Part shown: piece after piece, positions 8,246 through 27,460 of the stretch
Numbering within the stretch: the first letter of the stretch is position 1
Layout of the letters: every line of letters begins with the position of its first letter
From: Chromatiaceae bacterium
Lineage (GTDB): Bacteria > Pseudomonadota > Gammaproteobacteria > Chromatiales > Chromatiaceae
Direction of reading: 5' to 3'
Length of the DNA: 36,497 nt
NCBI GenBank assembly: GCA_013426805.1
Contig: JACDZG010000076.1
Coordinates: 1 to 36,497, forward strand
Translations under genes and position numbers: made by a program
Notes under the pieces: model-generated
Told to the model about the DNA's origin: nothing
Seen by the model: only the letters and a program-made list of their open reading frames with translations
Database searches by the model: none

Positions 8246-9418
8246 ATGTTGAGCGCCAAGGGCGAACGGGACGCCGTCGATCCGGGGCGGCACAGCCGGG
8301 CCGACGGGACCGGCGGCCATCCCAACCAGGCCTGCGCATGCGGCCAACGGCACGCGTCGGATCAGGAGGAGACGGCGGACCCGGCAGCGGCTGAAGCGGT
8401 GGCTGAGATCCTTGCGCGCCGCCCCGCGCTCGCGCTGGACCTCCCCCACGCCGCCGCATCCCAGGGCGCGAGCGCGGTGTCGCCCGGTCTCGTCGGGGCC
8501 TGGGTGCCGGAGGTCGTGCCGACCAATGCGCCACCGCGCGCGGTGGACTCGACCGCGGACGAGCACCCGCGCCCGCTGCCCCGGCGTGCCCGCCGCAAGC
8601 TGTGGGAGATCCCGCCGGAATTCCATTGCCCGGTGATCGGCACCTGCCTGGAGGTCGCGGAACTGCGCCGCGACTTCGATGCGCTCTATGCGCGCACGCG
8701 CCGCCAGAGCGAGGAGCGCGAGGCGCTGATTCACGACCTGGAGCGGATCTTGGCCGAACGCGAGGCGGCGCTGGCCGTCAGCCTGGAGCGCGAGCACGTG
8801 CGCGCCGCCCGGATCGCCGCCCTGGAGACCGAACTGGCGGCGAACGACTCGGCGCAACGGATCGCCGCGCTGGAAAGCGCCTTGGCCTTGGCTGACCAAC
8901 GCCGCGCCGCCGCCGAGGCCGACGCCGTCCGGGCACGGGATGCCGCGACCCAGGCGCTCACGCGCGCCGGGATCGGCGAGCAACAGCTCGCCGAAAAGAC
9001 CGCGGAAAGCGCCGCTCTCGAGCGCCTGCTGGCCGCGGCCTTGGCGGATTCCGGCACCAATCCCTGCGCGGACTGCCCCAACGCCGGGTGCGGCTGCGAT
9101 CAGGCCGGCCGCGATCTGGCCGGCCGCCTGATCCTGTGTGTCGGCGGGCGGCGGCCCCAGGTGCAGCACCTCGCCCGCCTGGTCGCGGATTCGAATGGCC
9201 GCTTCGATCACCACGACGGCGGTCTGGAGGACTGCGACCGCCGACTGGAGGCGCTGCTGGCCGGCGCGGACGCGGTCATCTGCGCGACCGATTACATCAG
9301 CCACGCCGCGTATTACCGCACCAAGCGTTACTGCAAACACCATGCGAAGCCGCATGTCCTGGTGCCGCATTCCGGGCTCGCCGCCTTCGCGCTCGCGCTG
9401 GAGCGCGTGGCGGGGTGA
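8246..9418 (+). CDS. DUF2325 protein with central coiled coil and Cys cluster (copy 1)
   Basis: A 390-aa protein. Residues 1-110 are low-complexity. A short conserved block (RRKLWEIPPEFHCPVIGTC followed by LEVAELRR) spans about 113-140, a long Ala/Arg/Glu-rich coiled coil about 145-265, a CADCPNAGCGCD cluster about 273-284, and a C-terminal DUF2325 domain (LILCVGGRRPQ, FDHHDGGLEDC, CATDYISHAAYYRTKRYC). His and Cys residues in the domain suggest metal or nucleotide binding, but no reaction is established to my knowledge. It follows the HemS-like gene by 13 bp, with AGAGGG as ribosome site. A paralogue lies at 16908-18191; compared with it, this copy lacks a domain of about 110 residues after the first block. 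Confidence 0.8.
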   Translation: MLSAKGERDAVDPGRHSRADGTGGHPNQACACGQRHASDQEETADPAAAEAVAEILARRPALALDLPHAAASQGASAVSPGLVGAWVPEVVPTNAPPRAVDSTADEHPRPLPRRARRKLWEIPPEFHCPVIGTCLEVAELRRDFDALYARTRRQSEEREALIHDLERILAEREAALAVSLEREHVRAARIAALETELAANDSAQRIAALESALALADQRRAAAEADAVRARDAATQALTRAGIGEQQLAEKTAESAALERLLAAALADSGTNPCADCPNAGCGCDQAGRDLAGRLILCVGGRRPQVQHLARLVADSNGRFDHHDGGLEDCDRRLEALLAGADAVICATDYISHAAYYRTKRYCKHHAKPHVLVPHSGLAAFALALERVAG

Positions 9419-10107: not shown

Positions 10108-10386
10108 CTACGGGCAGCGGCGCGCCCCCTGGCCGGTGCGGTTGATGCAGCGGCGAGCGGTGCGCTCCAACAGTCGGCGCAGCCGGGTGTTCAGCTCCGC
10201 GGCATCCAGCCGCGCCGGCTCGTAACCGATCACGATGCTCGCGCAGGCCGGATTGGCGCGGACCTCGCGCACCCACTGCTCGGCCTGCAGGGCGGTCACC
10301 AGCCGCGCCGCGAGCGCGGGTTCCCGTCCGATGGCCCTGATCCGAAGCCGCACGCGGCCCGGTACGTGATGGCGATTCTCGATCAT
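10108..10386 (-). CDS. Stand-alone HMA-like protein of the HxxPGRxRxR type
   Basis: A 92-aa protein starting MIENRHHVPGRVRLRI, with the beta-alpha-beta pattern of heavy-metal-associated domains but no CxxC metal site: strand and HHVPGRVRLR at 5-16, helix about 22-38, a central strand VREVRANPACASIVIGY at about 39-55, then a helix. The same motif opens the P1B ATPase at 20877 and the small proteins at 18370 and 27107. Such domains accompany ferrosome-type ATPases. A Fur-like site lies at 10439-10457 just upstream. It is transcribed divergently from the ALDH-like and broken ATPase locus, so it was probably part of the second fez-like locus. Fold and motif are fairly sure; function is inferred. 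Confidence 0.75.
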   Translation of the reverse strand: MIENRHHVPGRVRLRIRAIGREPALAARLVTALQAEQWVREVRANPACASIVIGYEPARLDAAELNTRLRRLLERTARRCINRTGQGARRCP

Positions 10387-11335: not shown

Positions 11336-11868
11336 ATGATCGAGGTCCGTCACAGCATCCCTGGGCGGCTGCGTCTCGGCGTTCCCGCGTTGCGCCATGA
11401 TCGGCGGTTGGCGGACGCGGTGCACCGCGCGCTGAGCGGGACCGAGGGTGTACTGCGGATCAGGATCAACTCGGCCTGCGGTTCGCTGCTGGTGTGCTGG
11501 GCGTGCGGCGACCCCGACGCCCGCGAGCGCATCGCGGCGGCCTTGGAAACGCTGTTGGGGCAAGCGGTCCCCCGCCCGGCGGCGGCCCTGTGCCCGAATC
11601 CGCCGCCGCGGCCGCAAACCGCAACCGTGGCGTGCCGGGCCTGCCGCGCCGCGCCGCCGACGGCGCGTTCCGGCCGCAGTCCCTGGCCGATGCGGGTCCT
11701 GGGCTTCGTGCTGCTGACCGGCTATCTCGCGTTCGCGCTGGTGCGCAGCCTGGTTCTCAAAAGTCCGCTCGCCGGCGGTGCGCTGAGTCTGACCGGCCTC
11801 GTCGCGCTGGTCGCCGCGCTGCCGCTACTGCGCGACGCCTGGCACGAGACGGTCGTCGAGAAGCGGAG
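11336..11868 (+). pseudogene. N-terminal part of a P1B-type ATPase (HMA-like domain plus first membrane spans)
   Basis: From MIEVRHSIPGRLRLGVPALR the frame encodes an HMA-like domain of the PGRxRL type, a Pro/Ala/Cys linker, and two hydrophobic helices (VLGFVLLTGYLAFALVRSLV and LSLTGLVALVAALPLLRDAW). The layout matches the start of the intact ATPase at 20877 and related P1B enzymes. Homology stops after HETVVEKR, exactly where the TTCCGGGGACAGAATACTTA repeat begins; the frame then runs on as junk to 12289. The matching C-terminal piece lies at 14296-14676, so about 2.4 kb of foreign sequence replaced the core of the enzyme. GTG at 11312 is an alternative start. Confidence 0.75.
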
Positions 11869-14295: not shown

Positions 14296-14676
14296 TGGCA
14301 CGTTGCGGCGAGGGCGCGGTTGGCTTTTATCAACGGCGATGAAAATGGTGCTCGGGGTGCCGGCGGCTCGGAGGTCGCCGTGGAGGTGGCGGACATCGCC
14401 ATTGTCGACAGCGATATCCGCAAGCTCGCGGCGCTGCGCGCGCTGAGCCGGGCGACGCTGCGCACCGCTGATCAGAACTACGGCATCGCCATCGGCACCG
14501 ACCTGATCGGCATCGCCTTCGGCGCCGCGGGTGTGCTGGGGCCGGCTTTCGGCGGCCTGATCCACATCCTGCACACCGCCGGCATTCTGACCAACTCCGC
14601 GCGCTTGCTGACGCATCGCCCGCCGGGCGGCGCCGACGACCGCACCGGTTCCGCAACCGGCGCGCTGAACCCTTGA
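14296..14676 (+). pseudogene. C-terminal part of the broken P1B-type ATPase
   Basis: The frame reads LAFINGDENGARGAGGSEVA, VEVADIAIVDSDIRKLAALR, then TLRTADQNYGIAIGTDLIGI and GPAFGGLIHILHTAGILTNS. This matches the hinge (GDGxND, here degraded to NGDENG) and the last two membrane helices of P1B ATPases. Phosphorylation and actuator domains are gone. It ends in a TTGA overlap with the next gene, as expected of an operon. Together with 11336-11868 it shows that an ATPase gene was split and gutted. Confidence 0.8.
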
Positions 14677-15086
14677 CGAAGGTCCAACCGTTGTCCACCC
14701 GCACCTGTCGACCTGTCCCCAACGCTGTCTTTCACGTCGTCAGTGAGCAGCCGCGGCGGCTGCGGCTGCGCGGACCGGTGATCGCCCACCCCTGCTTGGA
14801 CCTGGCCTATCTGCAGGCCCTGCTGGCGGCGCGGACGGGGGTCGCCGCTGTGCGCGTCAACCCGCGCGCGCGCCTCGGCGGTGACAGCGCCCGCGACCAG
14901 ATCGCCGCGCTGGGCATCCGCCCCGGCAGCGTCCTGACGCTCGAGAATGTCGGCCCCGACCTTGCCGTCGGCAACGAGGACGGCCGCGACTGCATCGTCG
15001 TCACCAGCGCGGACGGTCTGCGGCTCTACCTGAAGCCCGACCAGGCCGCGAGCATCATTGTCGATGTCGAAGGGACGGCCACGTAG
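14673..15086 (+). CDS. HMA-like domain with a possible FeoA-like C-terminal barrel
   Basis: A 137-aa protein. Residues about 15-68 repeat the HMA-like pattern (VFHVVSEQPRRLRLRGPVIA, helix, VAAVRVNPRARLGG). Residues about 75-134 (QIAALGIRPGSVLTLENVGP, CIVVTSADGLRLYLKPDQAA, SIIVDV) have the L-GI-PG-V-L pattern and closing A-x-I-x-V of FeoA-like SH3 barrels, the small cytosolic partner of the FeoB ferrous-iron transporter. The TTG start overlaps the stop of the ATPase remnant by four bases, a sign of former translational coupling. No ATG start is available. The HMA part is moderately sure; the FeoA similarity is my inference from pattern only. Confidence 0.6.
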   Translation: MTKVQPLSTRTCRPVPNAVFHVVSEQPRRLRLRGPVIAHPCLDLAYLQALLAARTGVAAVRVNPRARLGGDSARDQIAALGIRPGSVLTLENVGPDLAVGNEDGRDCIVVTSADGLRLYLKPDQAASIIVDVEGTAT

Positions 15087-16907: not shown

Positions 16908-18191
16908 TCAGGGGTTGCCCGACTCCCGGCGGCCAGTCGGCGGTAAGGCCAAAGTCTCCAGCCCCCTGGCGAAGGCCGAGAGGCCGGAACTGCTCAATAG
17001 CACACAGGGTTTACCGTGGCGCTTGCAAAAGCGCTTGACTCGGTAGTAAGCGGCATGGCTGACACAGTCGGCCGGGCACAGCACGGCGTCGGCCGCCGCG
17101 AGCATCGCGGTCAGGCGCTGGGAACTGTCCTCCAGGCCCCCGTCGTGACGTTCGAACGCGCCGTTGAGACGGGCGACCAGCGCCCGATAATGTCCGCTCA
17201 GCGCCTGACGGCCGCCGACACAGAGCACCCGCCGACCGCCCAAGTCGGGACCATCCCCGCAGGCGTTCTCGGTACAGGCATCGCAGGGCGCCAGGTCCTG
17301 CTGCAAGAGATCCTCCAAGAGCCGCAACTCGGCGCGGTGCTCGGCCAGACTAGCGCTCAGTTCGGCCGCTTGCGCCGCCGCCGTCGCGTACTGATCCCGC
17401 CAGTCCTCGGCTTGCGCCACGGCCTGAACCCGCTCGCGCTCCAGGCCCGCCTGGCGCTGTTCCAGTTCCGCCAACGCGGTCCGCAGGTCGGCGACGGTCC
17501 GACCGGATTCCAGCGCCGTGACTTGCTCGCGCAGCAGCGCCGACTCGGCGCGCAATGCGTCCATCTCGACCACCGTGGCACGCAACGCGGCCAGCTCCCG
17601 ATCGCGCGTCGCCAGGTCACGGGCGTGCCGTCGCAGGGTCGCCGCGTGCCGGGCCTGCAAGTCAGCCAGTTCGGTCCGGATCTGAGCCAGACGGGCCAGA
17701 TCCACCCGCTGCCCGGCGCCGATCTGATGCGACAGCATGTGAACGTCGCCATAGGCCATGGCCAGCAGTTCGGCGTCGGCGCGGGCATGAGTCACCACGG
17801 CCCACAGCGCGCCGGGGACGCCGCCGTCGGCCAGCGCCTCGCGCCACAAAGCGATGAGCAAGGTGCGCTCACGCACCTTGGCGAAGCGGGCCACGGCCGC
17901 GGCGTACTTGCGCTCCAGGACCTTGTGGGTCGCAACGGAAAGCGTGTTCTTACTGTCGGCGGCGCCGACGAAGTTCAGATGGACCTCGTAATCGCTCAAG
18001 GGTTCATCGGTTTCCATCCGCACCCGCTCGGCGATGCGCCGCAACTCGCCCACCTCCAGACAGGTGCCGATCACCGGACAGTGGTACTTGTGAGGAATCT
18101 CCCAGAGCTTGCGCCGGCTGGTGCGGGGCGGCTCGGGGATGCGCACGGGGGCGCCGTGAAGCGTCGGAGTCGACGGACCAAGATCGGTCAT
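16908..18191 (-). CDS. DUF2325 protein with extra domain, coiled coil and Cys cluster (copy 2)
   Basis: A 427-aa protein. An N-terminal block SRRKLWEIPHKYHCPVIGTC is followed by a conserved-looking helical domain of about 110 residues (YEVHLNFVGAADSKNTLSVA, KVLERKYAAAVARFAKVRER) absent from copy 1. Then come a coiled coil (about 215-325), a CDACTENACGDG cluster and the DUF2325 domain (VLCVGGRQALSGHYRALVA, FERHDGGLEDS, CPADCVSHAAYYRVKRFCKR). The 427-aa length and well-kept motifs suggest this is the complete form. It is transcribed divergently from the fez-like operon, and the 180-bp space between them holds two Fur-like boxes, so both sides may answer to iron. AGAAGG sits 9 bases before the ATG. 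Confidence 0.82.
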   Translation of the reverse strand: MTDLGPSTPTLHGAPVRIPEPPRTSRRKLWEIPHKYHCPVIGTCLEVGELRRIAERVRMETDEPLSDYEVHLNFVGAADSKNTLSVATHKVLERKYAAAVARFAKVRERTLLIALWREALADGGVPGALWAVVTHARADAELLAMAYGDVHMLSHQIGAGQRVDLARLAQIRTELADLQARHAATLRRHARDLATRDRELAALRATVVEMDALRAESALLREQVTALESGRTVADLRTALAELEQRQAGLERERVQAVAQAEDWRDQYATAAAQAAELSASLAEHRAELRLLEDLLQQDLAPCDACTENACGDGPDLGGRRVLCVGGRQALSGHYRALVARLNGAFERHDGGLEDSSQRLTAMLAAADAVLCPADCVSHAAYYRVKRFCKRHGKPCVLLSSSGLSAFARGLETLALPPTGRRESGNP

Positions 18192-18279: not shown

Positions 18280-18333
18280 AATGATAACGCGTCTCATCCA
18301 CTTGTCAATCTAAATGCGAATGATTACCATATT
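18280..18333. promoter_or_regulatory. Divergent Fur-regulated promoter region of the fez-like operon
   Basis: Two Fur-like sites: AATGATAACGCGTCTCAT (18280-18297) and AATGCGAATGATTACCATAT (18313-18332). On the plus strand TTGTCA (18302-18307), 17 bp and TACCAT (18325-18330) form a promoter with the second box lying across its spacer and -10. The first box is placed to act on either direction. The operon starts at 18370, the DUF2325 gene at 18191. Confidence 0.75.
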
Positions 18334-18369: not shown

Positions 18370-18693
18370 ATGACCGACCTTCCAGACCTAAGTGACCTGC
18401 TTCAACTCCGCGAGGGATTGAGCATCGTCCATCACATCCCCGGACGGATCCGCCTGCGCCTGGGGCCGATCATCCAGGACTGGGCCGCGACCCAGGAGTT
18501 GACGCCTGCCCAGGCCGTCGACTGGCTCGACATGGTGCCCGGGATCAACGGCATCAGACTGAACGCGGCGGCGGCCTCGCTGATTGTCGCTTATGACCCC
18601 GAACGGTTGGACCCGGACTGGTGGGAGACCCTGATCCTGGGCGACGAGGACATGGCAGTCGCCTTGGTCCTGAGCCTGTTCACCGGAACCTGA
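18370..18693 (+). CDS. HMA-like protein, first gene of ferrosome-like operon
   Basis: A 107-aa soluble protein. An acidic N terminus (MTDLPDLSDLLQLREGL) precedes SIVHHIPGRIRLRLG (residues about 18-32), a helix, and VPGINGIRLNAAAASLIVAY, so the domain follows the HMA beta-alpha-beta plan but has no CxxC. The C-terminal LVLSLFTGT is hydrophobic. The ATG at 18370 is the first after the Fur-overlapped promoter; the frame stays open upstream to 18235, but that start would precede the promoter. The same motif is the N-terminal domain of the ATPase that ends this operon, which suggests that the two interact or bind the same partner. Ferrosome clusters known from other bacteria also pair such small proteins with the ATPase. 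Confidence 0.78.
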   Translation: MTDLPDLSDLLQLREGLSIVHHIPGRIRLRLGPIIQDWAATQELTPAQAVDWLDMVPGINGIRLNAAAASLIVAYDPERLDPDWWETLILGDEDMAVALVLSLFTGT

Positions 18694-18723
18694 CGAACAT
18701 TTTTTCACCACAGGAGAACGATC

Positions 18724-19467
18724 ATGTGCGAGAGCGGAAACGGATCAGGAGGCGGCCCGGTCCAAGGCGAAGGCGCGGTGGGGCTCGGCCCCATGGGCGG
18801 TCAGGACGTCGGCAGCGGGAATGGTCTTGGAACCGCCCCATGGGGCCAAAATGCACCACCCGCGCAGGCCCCGACCCAGGCCGGCGTACCCCCCGCGACT
18901 CAAGGTCCAGGCGGCCAGTTTAGCGGTCAGGCCCCCTGGGGTCAGGCTCAAGGGCAACAACTACCGCCCGGGATGGGTCCCTATCAGGGTCAGACCGCGC
19001 CCGATCCGGGTCCCCAGTGGCCCGGCTATGGGTATCCCGGTGCCCAGTGGAGCTACGGAATGCCACAGACACCCTGGCCGCCCTATGCCTATCCCCCGGC
19101 GCCACCCTACGCGCCGCCTCCCATGGGCTATGCCCCGCAGGGCGGACACGCGCCCGGTCAGGGGTCCGGCGCCGCGGCTGGCCGCGGGGCCGGCATGTCC
19201 CAGTTGATGGAAGAACTCGCGGGGGGCGGCAACGGGCTCTCCAGCCTGTCGCAGATGCTCAACTTGGACGACAAGGAACTCTGGAAGGGCGCACTGATCG
19301 GGGCGGCGGTGGTCCTGCTGTTGACCAATGACTCGGTTCAGAACGCGCTGTTCAAGACCGGCGTGCGGGCACGCGACGCCGTCAAGTCCGGGGTCGATCA
19401 GGTCAAGAGCCGCACCCGAACCGCGGCTGAGAACGCGACCGGAACCCAGGGCGGCAGTCATGAGTAA
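18724..19467 (+). CDS. Gly/Pro/Tyr/Gln-rich protein with C-terminal membrane anchor (paralogue 1)
   Basis: A 247-aa protein, no signal peptide. Residues 1-150 are low-complexity, rich in Gly, Gln and Pro, turning into a Pro/Tyr/Trp section (PYAYPPAPPYAPPPMGYAPQ). A short amphipathic part follows (MSQLMEELAGGGNGLSSLSQ), then one glycine-rich membrane helix at about 188-201 (LWKGALIGAAVVLLLTNDSV) and an amphipathic charged tail (ARDAVKSGVDQVKSRTR). The helix and tail are shared with the protein at 20169. The topology suggests a coat or tether with a disordered arm on one membrane face. AGGAG lies 6 bases before the ATG. I recognise no named family; the tail is similar in layout to YtxH/DUF6110-like small proteins. 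Confidence 0.8.
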   Translation: MCESGNGSGGGPVQGEGAVGLGPMGGQDVGSGNGLGTAPWGQNAPPAQAPTQAGVPPATQGPGGQFSGQAPWGQAQGQQLPPGMGPYQGQTAPDPGPQWPGYGYPGAQWSYGMPQTPWPPYAYPPAPPYAPPPMGYAPQGGHAPGQGSGAAAGRGAGMSQLMEELAGGGNGLSSLSQMLNLDDKELWKGALIGAAVVLLLTNDSVQNALFKTGVRARDAVKSGVDQVKSRTRTAAENATGTQGGSHE

Positions 19468-19837
19468 CCACCCGAACGATCAGACCTACCCCATGGCCAT
19501 GGCCTATCCGGCGGAGGCCTATGCGCAGTCCAGCGACACGGCCTGCAGCACCCTGCTGCGGATGGCCCTGCTGGGCGGGGTGATCGGCGGCTCCGCCGCG
19601 GCGGCGGCCAATCTGCAACGTTCCCGTGACGGGGAACTGCGCGCCGGTCAGGCGCTGGTGGCGACCGCCCGCACGGCGGCAATCGCCGCCGCCGCGACCG
19701 CGACGGCTGGAGCTGTCGCCGGGGCGGTCGCCGAACAGGGGTTGTTGCGCCTGGCACTGATGTTCGCGGTCGGCACGGGCGTCGTCTACGGACTCGATCA
19801 ATGGGGCCGCGTTCCACTGGAGAACGGCGATGTCTAG
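19460..19837 (+). CDS. Gly/Ala-rich small membrane protein with MamC-like layout
   Basis: A 125-aa protein. The polar Tyr/Pro N terminus (1-30) precedes helix 1 (MALLGGVIGGSAAAAANLQR, about 35-51), a charged loop (RSRDGELRAGQALVATART), a very Ala-rich helix 2 (about 71-92) and a final hydrophobic stretch ending VGTGVVYGLDQWG. The order (Gly/Ala helix, about 20-residue charged loop, Ala/Gly helix, Y-x-x-D-x-x-G end) recalls the magnetosome protein MamC as I remember it, with almost equal spacing. That is inference, not an alignment. The start overlaps the preceding stop by 8 bp, so translation is probably coupled. Likely a structural component of the compartment made by this operon. Confidence 0.72.
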   Translation: MSNHPNDQTYPMAMAYPAEAYAQSSDTACSTLLRMALLGGVIGGSAAAAANLQRSRDGELRAGQALVATARTAAIAAAATATAGAVAGAVAEQGLLRLALMFAVGTGVVYGLDQWGRVPLENGDV

Positions 19838-20042
19838 CGGTCCCCAACGTCAACGTCACGGCGTCACCAAGCACCTGGTAGCGGGCGCCGGGGGTCTGTT
19901 GGTGGGTGCCGCGGTCGTCCTGTTGCTGCGTGGGTGGCTGAGCCGCCGCCGCGCGGTCCCTGCCCCGGTCGCGGCGACCGCCCACAACGATACCGTGGCA
20001 ACTCCGGCCTCCAGCAGCCGAACACAGGAGGCGATGCCATGA
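19830..20042 (+). CDS. Small single-span membrane protein, 70 aa
   Basis: A basic N terminus (SSGPQRQRHGVTKH) precedes one glycine-rich membrane helix (LVAGAGGLLVGAAVVLLLRG, residues about 16-35), then Arg-rich RRR and a Thr/Ser/Pro tail. It overlaps the stop of the previous gene by 8 bp and meets the next through ATGA. The glycine-spaced helix suggests packing with the other small helices of the operon. No family recognised. Confidence 0.68.
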   Translation: MSSGPQRQRHGVTKHLVAGAGGLLVGAAVVLLLRGWLSRRRAVPAPVAATAHNDTVATPASSSRTQEAMP

Positions 20043-20176
20043 GTCACGCTGATCCGCTGCCGCCCCGTCCATCGCTGACGGCCCCGGTCACCGGCGCGGC
20101 GATCAGCGTTGCCCGCGGCCGTGCCGCCGAACCACTGAAATCCATCACCCTCATCGCCGGAGTCAATCATGTCTAA
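20039..20176 (+). CDS. Very small operon protein, 45 aa
   Basis: Starts at an ATGA overlap with the 70-aa gene, with AGGAG nine bases upstream, and its stop overlaps the start at 20169 by 8 bp. The 45-residue product (MSHADPLPPRPSLTAPVTGA and on to SITLIAGVNHV) is short and mildly hydrophobic at the end, with no domain I know. The good ribosome site and position inside a tightly coupled operon support translation; it may serve mainly to couple the genes. Confidence 0.55.
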   Translation: MSHADPLPPRPSLTAPVTGAAISVARGRAAEPLKSITLIAGVNHV

Positions 20177-20642
20177 CCAATCGCTGTATTCCCAACAGCC
20201 CCAGGCGTTCGGCGCACCCATGCCAGGACAGAGCCAAGGACCGGGCCAGGCCGGCATGACCGGCTATCCCGGCACTGTTCAGGGCCAGCCCGCCATGATG
20301 CAGTTCGCTCAAGGCGGCTACGGAGCAGCCGGCTACGGCCAAGGCGGTTACACGACCGCCTCCCATCAGGGCTACGCCGGCTATCCCGCGGCCTCGTATC
20401 ATCAGTCCCAGTACCAGTCGTCGACACCCTTTTTCAATTTTTCCAACGACCGGTTTCTCAAGGGACTGCTGATCGGGGCCGCCGCCGCCTATCTGTTGAC
20501 CAACGAATCGGTCCAGCGCACCGCCATCAAGGGTGTCGTCAAGGCCTGGTCCATGCTGCAGGGCGGAGTGGAGGAGATCAAGGAACGCTTCCAGGATGCC
20601 GAGGCCGAAATCCGGGCGGGCGAAGCCGCCCCCAAGGAGTGA
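20169..20642 (+). CDS. Gly/Tyr/Gln-rich protein with C-terminal membrane anchor (paralogue 2)
   Basis: A 157-aa protein. Residues 1-85 are low-complexity Gln/Gly/Tyr/Ala (GGYGAAGYGQGGYTTASHQG), of the sort that phase-separates or self-assembles. A helix at about 98-111 (FLKGLLIGAAAAYLLTNESV) and a charged amphipathic tail (SMLQGGVEEIKERFQDAEAE) follow. Over about 30 residues the helix region matches the protein at 18724: KGxLIGAA, LLTNxSVQ and a downstream K in both. It overlaps its neighbours by 8 bp and 4 bp. A coat or scaffold role at the compartment membrane is plausible. Composition unlike typical neighbours. Confidence 0.8.
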   Translation: MSNQSLYSQQPQAFGAPMPGQSQGPGQAGMTGYPGTVQGQPAMMQFAQGGYGAAGYGQGGYTTASHQGYAGYPAASYHQSQYQSSTPFFNFSNDRFLKGLLIGAAAAYLLTNESVQRTAIKGVVKAWSMLQGGVEEIKERFQDAEAEIRAGEAAPKE

Positions 20643-20890
20643 GCGCGCGCCCCGATCACCCGGCCTCGTGCGGTCACGGGTCCGCCGTGGACGCGGGCTC
20701 GGATGACCGGGGCACCGTCCATTCACTGCACTGGTGGCACGAGCAACCCGCCGTACCCCCGGTCTCCCGCCCACCCCCGGCGAAATCCGACCGTCTGTTG
20801 GTCGGCCTGATCGCCGGGGCGGGCCTGTTTTACCTGCTCGGCCGCGCCCTGGGGCTCGGTCGCCATCGGAAGACCCATGACGCGTCTTGA
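20639..20890 (+). CDS. Small single-span membrane protein, 83 aa
   Basis: The start is GTG at 20639, overlapping the previous stop (GTGA); no ATG is available before the helix. The N-terminal half is polar with His and Cys (DHPASCGHGSAVD, HSLHWWHEQPAV). A membrane helix follows (RLLVGLIAGAGLFYLLGRAL, about 52-71), with a basic His/Arg/Lys tail. The His/Cys content could bind metal, but no motif is diagnostic. It ends 14 bp inside the ATPase gene. No family recognised; resembles the 70-aa protein in layout. Confidence 0.66.
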   Translation: MSARPDHPASCGHGSAVDAGSDDRGTVHSLHWWHEQPAVPPVSRPPPAKSDRLLVGLIAGAGLFYLLGRALGLGRHRKTHDAS

Positions 20891-23021
20891 CTTCACTCTG
20901 GTCCACGAGGTCCCCGGACGGCTGCGCCTGCGGGTTCCGGCCTTGCGCACCCCGGACCTCGACGGCGCCCATCTGGAATCCTGGATGGACGCCGTCGCGG
21001 GCGTGCGTCAGGCCCGGGTGAACCGTGCCGCCGCCAGCCTGACTCTGCACTACCAGGGCGGACCGGCGGCCCGCGCCGCGATCCTGGAGCGACTGGCTCA
21101 CTGCTCCCCGGCACCGCTCCCGCCGCTCACCGCGGGCCGCGAGGCCGGGATCGCCCCCATGGTCACCAGCGCACTGGGGCTCGCCGCCCTGCCCCTGCTG
21201 ACGCCGCCCATGCAGCAACTGCTGACCTTCGTGACCCAGGGCCAGACCCTCGCCGGCGGGGTGGACACCCTGATCCGGCGCGGCATCAAAGTCGAAGTAC
21301 TTGATGCCCTCGCGATCGGGCTGGCGGCGGCCCGCGGCGAGGTCTATACCGCCGGCATCACCGGCTTTCTGCTGGCACTGGGCGAATACCTGGAGCAACG
21401 CACGGAGCGCCAATCCGACCGGCTGCTGCGCCAGTTGCTGCGCCCCGAACCGGCGATGGCCTGGGTCGAACGCGACGGCACCCTGATTCAGGTCGCCGGC
21501 GACGAGGTGCTGGAGGGTGAGACCGTGGTGGTCGGCGTCGGCGAGACCATTCCGGTGGACGGACGCGTCATCGACGGTGTCGCCCTGGTCAATCAGGCGG
21601 CGGTCACCGGCGAGAATGTGCCGGTGCGCAAAGAAGCACCGCGCCGCGTGGTCGCCGGCTCCACGCTGGAAGACGGCCGGCTGCGTATCGCGGCGACCCA
21701 GGTCGGCGCTGACACCACCACGGCGCGGATCGCCCGCTTCATCCAGGAGTCGCTGGGCAAGCAGTCGGAGACCCAGCGGCTGGCCGACCGCCTGGCGGAC
21801 CAGCGGGTCTACCTCACCCTGGTCACCGGCGGCCTGGTCTATGCCGTCACCCGCGACCTGACCCGATTACAGGCGGTCTTCCTGGTCGATTATTCCTGCG
21901 CGCTCAAGCTCGGAACCCCGGTCGCCTTCAAGTCCGGCATGTACGCCGCCGCCTCCCATGGCGTCCTGATGAAGGGCGGCCAGGCGATCGAGCAACTCGC
22001 CGCGGTGGATACCGTCGTCTTCGACAAGACCGGCACCCTGACGCATAGCGAGCTGATCGTCACCGACGTGCTGGTGCTCGATCCAACGGGGTGCAGCGAG
22101 GCCGAGCTGCTCGCCCTGGTCGCCTCGGTGGAGGAACACGCCAGCCACCCGGTGGCCAAGGCCGTGGTCGAGGCGGCACGCGAACGCGACCTGCAGCACA
22201 TTACCCACGGGGAGGTGGATTACCTGGTCGCCCACGGACTGGCGGCCGACGTCAGCGCTCCGGGCGGGTCCAGACGCGTACGCATTGGCAGCCGTCATTA
22301 CCTGGAGCAGCACGAAAACATCCGGTTCGACGCCCACGAGCCATTGATCGACCGGTTGCAGGACGAAGGCAAGACGCTACTTTTCGTCGGCAACGACCAG
22401 GGTCCGGTGGGGCTGATTGCCCTGCGCGACACCTTGCGCGCGGATGCTAGGGAGACGATCGCGCGGCTGCGTGCGTTGGGCATCAAGCAACTCATCATGA
22501 TCACCGGCGACCGCCGCGCTAAAGCCGAGGCCTTGGCGATCGAATTGGGTCTGGACGCCGTTTACGCCGACATGGCCCCGGAAGGCAAAGCCGGCATCAT
22601 CGAGACCCTGCAGCAGGCCGGGCATCAGGTGGCCTTCGTCGGCGACGGGGTCAACGACGGCCCGGCCCTGGTCGCGGCCGAGGTCGGCATCGCGATGCCG
22701 CGCGGGGCTGACATCGCACGCGCCACCGCGGATATCGTGCTCATGGATGACCGGCTCGCCGCGGTGGCCGACGCCCGCGATCTGGCGGGCCGGACCATGC
22801 AGCTAATCCGCACCAACTTCAATCTCGCCGTCGGCATCAACACCGCCATCCTGGGCGGCGCCGTCATGGGCTGGCTCTCCCCGGTGGCCAGCGCGGTTCT
22901 CCATAACGGCAGCACTATCGGCATCCTACTTAACGCCTTGGCGGGAGTGAGTCAGGCGCCGGGGGTGCGCGGGCAGACCGCCGAGCGCATGCGCCACCTC
23001 AAGGAGGCAGTCCGCGGCTGA
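20877..23021 (+). CDS. P1B-type ATPase with SCA motif, probable ferrosome iron transporter (FezB-like)
   Basis: A 714-aa membrane pump. The N-terminal HMA-like domain carries HEVPGRLRLRVPAL (10-23). Catalytic signatures are intact: TGEN at 244-247, DKTGTLTHS with phospho-Asp 383, HP at 424-425, TGD at 543-545 and GDGVND at 589-594. The membrane metal motif is DYSCALKLGTP, with Ser340-Cys341-Ala342 in place of CPC. SCA marks the P1B-6 group, the FezB type that drives iron into ferrosomes. Helices near 93-110, 140-170, 312-360 and 660-700 give the usual topology. It is the last gene of the operon, overlapping the previous one by 14 bp, and no CxxC site is present. Metal specificity for iron rests on family knowledge and Fur context. 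Confidence 0.9.
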   Translation: MTRLDFTLVHEVPGRLRLRVPALRTPDLDGAHLESWMDAVAGVRQARVNRAAASLTLHYQGGPAARAAILERLAHCSPAPLPPLTAGREAGIAPMVTSALGLAALPLLTPPMQQLLTFVTQGQTLAGGVDTLIRRGIKVEVLDALAIGLAAARGEVYTAGITGFLLALGEYLEQRTERQSDRLLRQLLRPEPAMAWVERDGTLIQVAGDEVLEGETVVVGVGETIPVDGRVIDGVALVNQAAVTGENVPVRKEAPRRVVAGSTLEDGRLRIAATQVGADTTTARIARFIQESLGKQSETQRLADRLADQRVYLTLVTGGLVYAVTRDLTRLQAVFLVDYSCALKLGTPVAFKSGMYAAASHGVLMKGGQAIEQLAAVDTVVFDKTGTLTHSELIVTDVLVLDPTGCSEAELLALVASVEEHASHPVAKAVVEAARERDLQHITHGEVDYLVAHGLAADVSAPGGSRRVRIGSRHYLEQHENIRFDAHEPLIDRLQDEGKTLLFVGNDQGPVGLIALRDTLRADARETIARLRALGIKQLIMITGDRRAKAEALAIELGLDAVYADMAPEGKAGIIETLQQAGHQVAFVGDGVNDGPALVAAEVGIAMPRGADIARATADIVLMDDRLAAVADARDLAGRTMQLIRTNFNLAVGINTAILGGAVMGWLSPVASAVLHNGSTIGILLNALAGVSQAPGVRGQTAERMRHLKEAVRG

Positions 23022-23300: not shown

Positions 23301-23828
23301 TCACTGGGCCGCGGCGGTCGCGGCGGCCTGGTTGATCTGTTGCGCCAACGCGGCGAGTTCGTTGTCGATCATCAGCAGGCTTTGGCCTTGATCGCCGAAG
23401 ATCCGCAGGCGGCCGAGAATGTCTTTCACCGTCGCCTCCTCCTCGATCTGCTCGGTCACGAACCAGTGCAGAAACACGTTGGTCGCGTGGTCTTTCTCGG
23501 TCAGCGCATGGTCGACCAGGTCGTTGATCGAGCGGGTCACCCCCCGCTCGTGTTCGAGCGTGCGCTCGAAAATCTCCATCACCACGTTCCCCACGGTCTC
23601 CGGTACCGAGACTGCCTTCAGCGTCACGGCGGCATCCTGATCGATCAGGTACCTGAACATCTTCAACGCATGGGTCATTTCTTCGCCGTGCTTGGCCAGG
23701 AACCAAGCCGCGGTTCCCTTAAGATTCATCGCTTCAGTCTGCGCCGACAGCCCCAGGTAATAGTAGGCTGAGTACATTTCGCGGTTGATCTGGGCGTTGA
23801 TCAGCGTCGCCATGTCTTTTGAAATCAT
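23301..23828 (-). CDS. ftnA: FtnA-type non-heme ferritin
   Basis: A 175-aa four-helix iron-storage protein. The ferroxidase residues line up with E. coli FtnA numbering: Glu17 (NREMYSAYYYL), Glu50 and His53 (EEMTH), Glu94 (EHERG), Gln127 and Glu130 (TEQIEEE). HWFVTEQIEEEATVKDIL is diagnostic. It oxidises Fe(II) and stores it as ferric mineral in a 24-mer shell. The ATG at 23828 has GGAG ten bases upstream. No Fur box is seen just upstream, unlike the fez-like operon, so the two iron stores may be used under different iron supply. Convergent to the ATPase gene. Confidence 0.92.
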   Translation of the reverse strand: MISKDMATLINAQINREMYSAYYYLGLSAQTEAMNLKGTAAWFLAKHGEEMTHALKMFRYLIDQDAAVTLKAVSVPETVGNVVMEIFERTLEHERGVTRSINDLVDHALTEKDHATNVFLHWFVTEQIEEEATVKDILGRLRIFGDQGQSLLMIDNELAALAQQINQAAATAAAQ

Positions 23829-24049
23829 CGGAGGCGGTCTCCTGCTGCGGTTGGATTCGGCTGGGTCGACGGCCGCGGGTGTCGCTCCATGCATCGGCCG
23901 TCACGTCTGACCCCGTACGTGACCTTTGGCTGCCGTTTTTCAAGACGTCGCGGAAGACCGCGGCGAATTCCAGGCGGCCGGCGACAAGGACCGCCGCGGC
24001 GTCCCCTGTCGCTGGTCAGCGCGTCAGCCCCCGTCCCGTGGACGACCGC

Positions 24050-27078: not shown

Positions 27079-27106
27079 CTCTCTAATTTTGTGTGGAGAA
27101 CCGGCC

Positions 27107-27460
27107 ATGAGCCTCTACATCCATCATGTCCCCGGACGCCTGCGGGTCCGGACTCAATCCTTCCGCTGTCAGCCCGGCAAGATCGAGGCGGCGGCGGGTC
27201 GGCTGCGCGAGTCGGCAGGGATCGACGCCGTGGCGGTGAACACCCGCGCGGGCAGCATCACCGTGCACTACGACCCCGCGCAACGCACCCAGGCCGAGTT
27301 GCTGGCAATGCTGGAAGAGATCGGCTGCGTCGGCGCCCGTCGCGTCGCGGGTCAGCAGGACAGCCAGGCGGCCGGACTGTTTGGCAAAGCGCTGCTTGGG
27401 GCGCTGGCCCAGACGCTGGCGCAAGGCTCGGTGCGCACCCTGGTGGGTGCCTTACGCTGA
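27107..27460 (+). CDS. Stand-alone HMA-like protein of the HxxPGRxRxR type
   Basis: A 117-aa protein. MSLYIHHVPGRLRVRTQSFR begins a beta-alpha-beta domain (IDAVAVNTRAGSITVHYDPA is the central hairpin, AELLAMLEEIGCVGARRV the second helix) that follows the HMA plan without CxxC. The C-terminal ALLGALAQTLAQGSVRTLVG is a glycine/alanine-rich helix that could lie on or in a membrane. GGAG sits 8 bases before the ATG, with a Fur-boxed promoter upstream. It is the closest in form to the N-terminal domain of the ATPase at 20877 and is probably a further member of the same iron system. It stands alone and is convergent to the MFS gene. Confidence 0.78.
   Translation: MSLYIHHVPGRLRVRTQSFRCQPGKIEAAAGRLRESAGIDAVAVNTRAGSITVHYDPAQRTQAELLAMLEEIGCVGARRVAGQQDSQAAGLFGKALLGALAQTLAQGSVRTLVGALR

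Follow-up and report, generated by a model that had tools for sequence, protein, structure and literature searches.

A fez-type operon in a Chromatiaceae bacterium and its gene of the magnetosome MamC family

What does a P-type ATPase gene do at the end of a run of small membrane-protein genes: does such a set build an iron store, and what would the small proteins contribute? The question is raised by positions 18370-23021, plus strand, of a 36,497-nucleotide stretch of DNA from a Chromatiaceae bacterium (contig JACDZG010000076.1; the whole stretch is called the window here). We consider it likely that this locus is a complete fez operon, the kind that builds ferrosomes, of the type that carries a MamC gene, and that it works broadly as proposed below; that it serves iron storage is nearly as likely. 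Its third gene, g3, encodes a protein of the MamC family, known from magnetosomes, and two iron organelles thus appear to share one part. The family split between ferrosome and magnetosome gives a handle both on the origin of a magnetosome protein and on the roles of the small ferrosome proteins.

The operon and its ATPase

Open reading frame (ORF) analysis finds eight open frames, g1 to g8, in one tightly overlapped run; with the starts chosen here, neighboring frames share 4-14 bases at all but one of the seven junctions. The GC content at third codon positions (GC3) is 0.71-0.86 throughout, and several frames have clear ribosome-binding sites. The eight-gene operon described in an initial annotation of the sequence therefore stands. 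The first gene, g1 (18370..18693), encodes a small stand-alone HMA_2 protein of 107 amino acids with a PGRIRLR motif (Pfam PF19991, E 1.2e-7); HMA_2-type genes are also first in the operon of several other loci. The g2 product (18724..19467) is a Gly/Pro/Gln-rich low-complexity protein with a single C-terminal hydrophobic segment (KGALIGAAVVLLLTN), recognized by its composition and by relatives in other loci. That of g6 (20169..20642) has, from a structural model and relatives, a Gly/Tyr/Gln-rich N terminus predicted to be disordered, one membrane helix and a long charged C-terminal helix (mean pLDDT 59; residues 1-84 under 50). The letters G, P, Y and Q make up 60% of g2 residues 1-165 and 58% of g6 residues 1-84, in keeping with the two low-complexity anchored proteins first noticed. 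The g2 and g6 families are homologous to each other (hhalign, 99.0%).

The last gene, g8 (20877..23021), encodes a FezB-like P1B ATPase of 714 amino acids, identified by its Pfam P1B domains and by a tree. The motifs originally read in it are present: PGRLRLR stands at residue 13, and residue 340 marks SCA. Its N-terminal HMA_2-like domain scores 24.7 bits, under the Pfam cut-off of 30. It is the sole close copy in its own genome, the next four P-type ATPases being 33-39% identical. A genome collection was scanned with a seven-sequence ATPase alignment (the window and six relatives) and the best 80 loci were kept. The ATPase tree comprises 97 P1B sequences, two other P-type ATPases having been dropped and frames lacking the sought motifs (e.g., that of locus L038) excluded; it contains neither a characterised FezB nor named metal pumps. 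In it, 49 SCA ATPases form one clade (support 0.996), outside which fall the CPC (23), CPG (9), TGI/GTG (7), CPD (6) and other (3) sequences. The window ATPase lies in an SCA subclade of 24 (support 1.0), beside that of L116 (74% identical over the match). By motif and clade, g8 is thus of the FezB kind, an SCA-motif P1B ATPase apart from the CPC, CPG and CPD groups, and the initial reading of a fez-type operon with a P1B-6-like ATPase withstands the refuting result that it had named, a grouping of the ATPase with other P1B types. When the ATPase was searched against PDB sequences, copper, cadmium and zinc P-type ATPases came out on top by general similarity, which does not indicate the substrate.

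The subclade coincides largely with the presence of a MamC-like gene, which was found in 22 of its 24 loci (L019 equals L023 in sequence); the 25 SCA loci outside it, some of them close to a contig end, showed none. FeoB (E < 1e-60) is present on 9 of 47 SCA loci vs. 1 of 39 others (L015-L100; these are raw counts, and flank lengths differ). The order HMA_2, g2-like, g3-like, g6-like, ATPase recurs in Photobacterium, Kluyvera, Hahella, Rhodospira, Methylocystaceae, Desulfarculaceae and others, that is, in gamma-, alpha- and deltaproteobacterial loci, with gaps: some lack the HMA_2 gene at the head or one of the anchored proteins. The profiles behind this order were built from Chromatiaceae loci, and their E-values include iterated members; they were therefore used for gene order, not as proof of homology. 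Since the order recurs across lineages, chance is excluded for the core. A synteny search for the small genes had been proposed in the initial annotation as a check; the order of the core genes is common to many loci, with FeoB near some of them.

Known systems provide a further comparison. A six-gene fez operon was reportedly described by Grant and colleagues in 2022 in Rhodopseudomonas palustris (RPA2333-2338) and Shewanella putrefaciens, while Clostridioides difficile is said to carry fezAB and Desulfovibrio magneticus fezABC. The R. palustris and S. putrefaciens operons have a FezB-type SCA ATPase, as the window does; beyond this six-gene type, the window has g4, g5 and g7, and kilobases separate the operon from the other HMA_2 genes of the window. 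L165, from the order of Photobacterium, has exactly six genes (HMA_2(-), HMA_2, g2-like, g3-like, g6-like and ATPase), five of which have counterparts in the core of the window. By inference, the window locus would belong to the six-gene type of fez operon, intact and extended by small genes specific to its lineage. In clostridial and Desulfovibrio-type fez loci, a one-helix protein (DUF6110 in the clostridial ones) precedes the SCA ATPase; we take FezA to be this DUF6110 protein. Aligned with 19 DUF6110-type proteins, the g6 family gives 78.6% and a score of 34 in hhalign, against a maximum score of 12.5 in 50 shuffles, and g6 is probably a distant relative of these proteins. The number of genes in L165 fits the six fez genes from which R. 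palustris is reported to build ferrosomes, the likeness being one of gene number (PMC12016538). Ferrosome formation in C. difficile requires FezA and FezB, both Fur-repressed (PMC12574912); FezC is described as a DUF4405-like cytochrome (PMC11334425).

The remaining small genes are not part of the recurring order. g4 (19830..20042) encodes a one-helix protein of 70 amino acids (RQRHGV...GGLLVGAAVVLLL; from hydropathy and relatives), and its relatives are confined, among the loci compared, to L022 and loci from its own family. g7 (20639..20890, GTG start) encodes a small one-helix membrane protein, as judged from hydropathy and its two relatives, in L022 (E 3e-8) and L116 (E 9e-4), the only ones among 10,911 ORFs. 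g5 (20039..20176) is a possible 45-amino-acid peptide that overlaps both neighbors; it has a good ribosome-binding site and zero relatives among those ORFs, all of at least 40 amino acids. We regard g4 as a lineage extra, g7 as a rarer one and g5 as doubtful. The initial annotation saw more small and Gly/Tyr/Pro-rich parts here than are usual in fez loci. This holds as far as g4, g5 and g7 are concerned; as to the Gly/Tyr/Pro-rich proteins, g2 and g6 are, by their place in the recurring order, both core parts of the operon type and not extras.

A MamC-family protein and its tie to FezB

g3 (19460..19837) encodes a membrane protein of 125 amino acids, which had been noted initially only as one of several small membrane proteins, its MamC homology being overlooked. 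The NCBIfam model of MamC, NF038051, matches it with E 1.2e-8 and 35.2 bits, below the curated cut-off of 100 for a MamC equivalog. Of the ten window proteins compared with NCBIfam (those of the operon, a ferritin and DUF2325), g3 alone matched a magnetosome model, the scan being limited to these ten rather than the whole window or genome. The same model is matched by 21 of 22 fez-type g3-like members at E <=0.1 (best 5.6e-15). Profile to profile, the 22 fez-type and 9 magnetosome MamC sequences align in hhalign with 99.1% and E 9.7e-19 over 94 columns; the controls reached <=0.48% in 50 column shuffles, 0.77% on reversal and <=3% with four other fez families. With one magnetosome MamC as phmmer query, the first 15 ORFs are in magnetosome loci (the query's own included) and the next 36 are all fez-type (several duplicated), with nothing else to E 3.8e-4 among the 10,911 ORFs. 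Conversely, a profile of the fez-type members alone recovers MamC in two magnetosome genomes (E 1e-15 and 1e-11). Judged by these comparisons, g3 is a member of the MamC superfamily, homologous across the whole hairpin to magnetosome MamC (Mms13), which controls crystal size.

The family splits into magnetosome MamC and a fez branch, as seen in four taxonomic samples. The genes beside three members of the magnetosome set score as MamD, MamO and MamP (the latter two below cut-off) and Mms6. The window g3 falls short of the MamC cut-off, as do the four fez-type genes found in the Rhodospirillales sample. The fez branch, whose members are rich in Ala and Gly, is the more diverse: mean identity is 28% among its 54 sequences vs. 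63% among 10 of magnetosome MamC, a contrast that partly reflects sampling, as the magnetosome set was drawn from a single alpha order plus one gamma genome, and the fez set from a wider range of groups. It also lacks a conserved Glu66/Asp70 pair and usually sits beside FezB. Magnetosome MamC is described as a pair of transmembrane helices connected through a charged, helical linker and as regulating the size of magnetite crystals (PMC7604359); the spacing of Glu66 and Asp70 is said there and in PMC6584501 to match the spacing of iron ions in magnetite. The structural model of g3 has helices at 26-56, 62-89 and 96-116 (mean pLDDT 74). A PDB fold search with this model was uninformative (best E 2.9), and a PDB sequence search with a MamC-like profile gave a best E of 0.018, with MamC absent from the matches. 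Of the fez families, those of g2, g6 and g4, but not HMA_2, were compared with four magnetosome loci; their profiles gave no match below E 0.07, and MamC is the only shared gene found.

How firmly is the MamC-like gene tied to FezB? Genomes were sampled from the family of the window itself, Chromatiaceae (96; close loci in Halochromatium, L021, Thiospirillum, L023, and Thiobaca, L034), the order of Photobacterium (345; L028 in genome G124), the phylum of a Desulfarculaceae genome (345; L033, G126) and the order of Rhodospira (199; L032, G122). In the last, the MamC model itself served as query, so that faint fez-type genes would be missed. In total, 48 genomes carry a MamC-like gene of the non-magnetosome kind; FezB accompanies it in 46 of them and is its neighbor in 44, a close but imperfect tie. 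Left out of the 48 are the partial matches of G097, G551 and G653 (E 4e-4 to 1e-6, frame length 376-544 amino acids, no FezB), two magnetosome loci (G085, G118) and G204 (two fragments, no FezB).

In Chromatiaceae, 24 genomes have a MamC-like gene (E 1e-3) and 24 have FezB (E 1e-90); 21 have both, adjacent in 20, so that ferrosome-type operons occur in about a fifth of the genomes sampled. The three with MamC only are two magnetosome loci and one weak partial match. The three with FezB only are G024, with a match near a contig edge, G017, with an ATPase at 37% identity, and G119, with a broken copy and the small genes absent from the 2 kb before it. In the order of Photobacterium, 13 genomes have a MamC-like match at E 1e-5; in 11 the gene stands next to FezB, and the other 2 are partial matches with no FezB. 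In the Desulfarculaceae phylum there are 12, of which 9 are beside FezB; G840 has a FezB-like ATPase (motif SCV) on a different contig, and the last two, G739 and G881, lack FezB at E 1e-110. The 27 matches in the order of Rhodospira are 22 over the MamC cut-off, 4 below it, all beside FezB, and 1 fragmented. FezB was absent at E 1e-90 from the 6 tested of the 22 over-cut-off genomes and from both Chromatiaceae magnetosome genomes.

The number of MamC-like genes varies. L015 and L021 each have two within a single fez operon. At about 7839-8559 of L115 (G060), a second MamC-like gene stands by a g2-like gene (recognized by eye), some 640 kb from fezB, as an orphan mini-cluster.

Proposed working and rival explanations

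On iron shortage, Fur would leave the promoter. FezB (g8) would then pump cytoplasmic Fe(II) into membrane vesicles, with g1, the HMA_2 protein, and its own N-terminal HMA_2-like domain perhaps supplying the ion. Disordered tails and, in g6, the long charged helix would let the anchored g2 and g6 proteins crowd the vesicle membrane or give it shape. The g3 product would be a helical hairpin in that membrane, its linker probably facing the lumen, and might help to nucleate or limit the growing iron solid, much as MamC does with magnetite; by analogy such a role in nucleating or bounding the solid is plausible. g4 and g7 would be lineage accessories. The sequence itself establishes the gene content and its intactness, the clade of the ATPase, the recurring order, the MamC homology of g3 and the tie to FezB; iron as the substrate, the vesicles, the topology, the parts played by the small proteins and Fur control are inferences.

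The first step draws on a sigma-70-like promoter, TTGTCA-17-TACCAT (18302..18330, plus strand), a weak candidate recognized by consensus match (9 of 12). A Fur-box-like site at 18315-18329 overlaps its -10 hexamer, in line with the Fur-overlapped promoter of the initial annotation, and matches 11 of 14 positions of the Fur consensus. In the whole window, 2 Fur-like sites with <=3 mismatches are observed, whereas 0.09 are expected. The 300 bases before the first recognized operon gene were examined in 19 loci; the best Fur site was matched by <=3 of 200 simulated sequences in the window, L022 and L025 only. As the site is significant in just 3 of the 19, Fur control of the operon is plausible and its conservation among relatives unsupported.

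That the site stands out in so few loci is one of several points that weigh against reading the locus as a ferrosome operon of this type. The P1B-6 name, and the SCA motif as a mark of iron, are assumptions taken over as background. L035 belongs to the subclade of 24, yet no MamC-like gene was found in it. Two genomes, G739 and G881, carry a fez-type MamC gene with no FezB match at E 1e-110; in G881 (L166, L169), g2-like, MamC-like g3 and g6-like genes follow a CPC-type P1B ATPase instead. Residues 66 and 70 are acidic in just 7 and 10 of the 22 fez-type members, and in the window they are Gln and Ala; with the pair so poorly kept across the fez branch, a template of the magnetite kind is unlikely. 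DUF4405, the FezC type, is unmatched on the window contig, and two matches over the cut-off lie elsewhere in the genome. Finally, g8 has no match at E 1e-120 in seven of seven other genomes sampled from the genus, which indicates that the fez system is dispensable.

The alternative that survives best, though we think it unlikely, is efflux and detoxification of iron or another metal at the plasma membrane, with no internal compartment and with the small proteins stabilizing the pump. P1B ATPases are usually exporters, g1 matches HMA_2 (and g8 weakly so), and the ATPase that accompanies similar small genes in G881 has the CPC motif, usual in copper pumps. It is not obvious, however, why a single pump should need a MamC-family protein and a pair of anchored low-complexity proteins in an order that recurs. 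Moreover, the other MamC branch examined adjoins magnetosome genes, and R. palustris, likened here by gene number, reportedly makes ferrosomes from its six fez genes.

We give an even smaller chance to the operon being silent or decaying in the present genome. A second P1B ATPase nearby is broken (11339-11848 and 14320-14646), and the lack of a FezB match in the congeners would fit a system on its way out; against this stand the eight open frames, with their ribosome-binding sites and their GC3. Least probable is that g3 and MamC resemble each other by convergence, both being small Ala/Gly-rich helical hairpins: the low identity and Ala/Gly richness of the fez-type members and the empty fold search lend it something, but the controls, the single-query search and the reciprocal profile described above largely refute it.

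Origin of MamC and the surroundings of the operon

If the locus is a ferrosome operon, how did ferrosomes (of Pseudomonadota and Desulfobacterota) and magnetosomes (of magnetotactic Pseudomonadota) come to share a family of membrane proteins at an iron solid? We tentatively suggest, as an idea that may well prove wrong, that MamC is a uniform branch of the older, diverse fez family, taken over from ferrosomes, where its original job was control of the iron store. Fez-type MamC genes are present in the phylum of Desulfarculaceae, and the mamGFDC genes are missing from magnetotactic deltaproteobacteria, according to PMC7017999; together these suggest that magnetosomes took MamC from ferrosomes. 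In a tree of 64 sequences over 97 columns, the 10 of magnetosome MamC form one group (split support 99), and their position among the 54 fez-type sequences is weak, the nearest splits having 60 and 64. They fall inside the fez members only by an arbitrary midpoint root, the tree having no outgroup, and it favors neither direction of descent. A literature search found no link between ferrosomes and MamC, the founding ferrosome papers lying outside its coverage, so that the link may already be known; none appears in the accessible parts of PMC12713370, PMC12778047, PMC12199438, PMC7972479, PMC12748827 and PMC9512821.

The genes around the operon are candidates only. A ferritin gene (23301..23894, minus strand; Pfam Ferritin, E 1.5e-35) adjoins fezB, and a DUF2325 gene (16908..18191, minus strand; Pfam, E 1e-25) diverges from the operon, with relatives near fez genes in L021 and L110. 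A second DUF2325 protein is encoded at 8246-9418 (plus strand), about 9 kb from the operon, and in L162 (1251-2606) another lies beside the MamC-like gene of G739, the genome where FezB was not found. DUF2325 could be an unrecognized partner of MamC-family genes.

Downstream, an HMA_2 protein is encoded at 27089..27460 (plus strand; PF19991, E 2.7e-7). Of the relatives found, the closest (L116 10648-11010, E 4.8e-40) lies second after fezB on the downstream side, and because of this position the window gene is perhaps a displaced fez-associated gene. The two pieces of the broken P1B ATPase, N- and C-terminal, are both on the plus strand, about 2.5 kb apart, and look like one gene. Among ten queries tried, their best match is an intact CPC-type ATPase directly before the fez operon of L037; the corresponding place is taken by an HMA_2/CPC-type or similar P1B ATPase in L163 (by Pfam) and in G881 (by motif). 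The G881 set behind its CPC-type ATPase is possibly a variant for another metal.

Two further genes upstream recall the fez operon. A stand-alone HMA_2 gene at 10108-10386 (minus strand; Pfam, E 1.5e-10) has relatives near fez operons in L116, L017 and others. The frame at 14673-15086 (plus strand), which has no Pfam match, resembles the FezB N terminus in its first half, by an iterated profile only, fused to other sequence.

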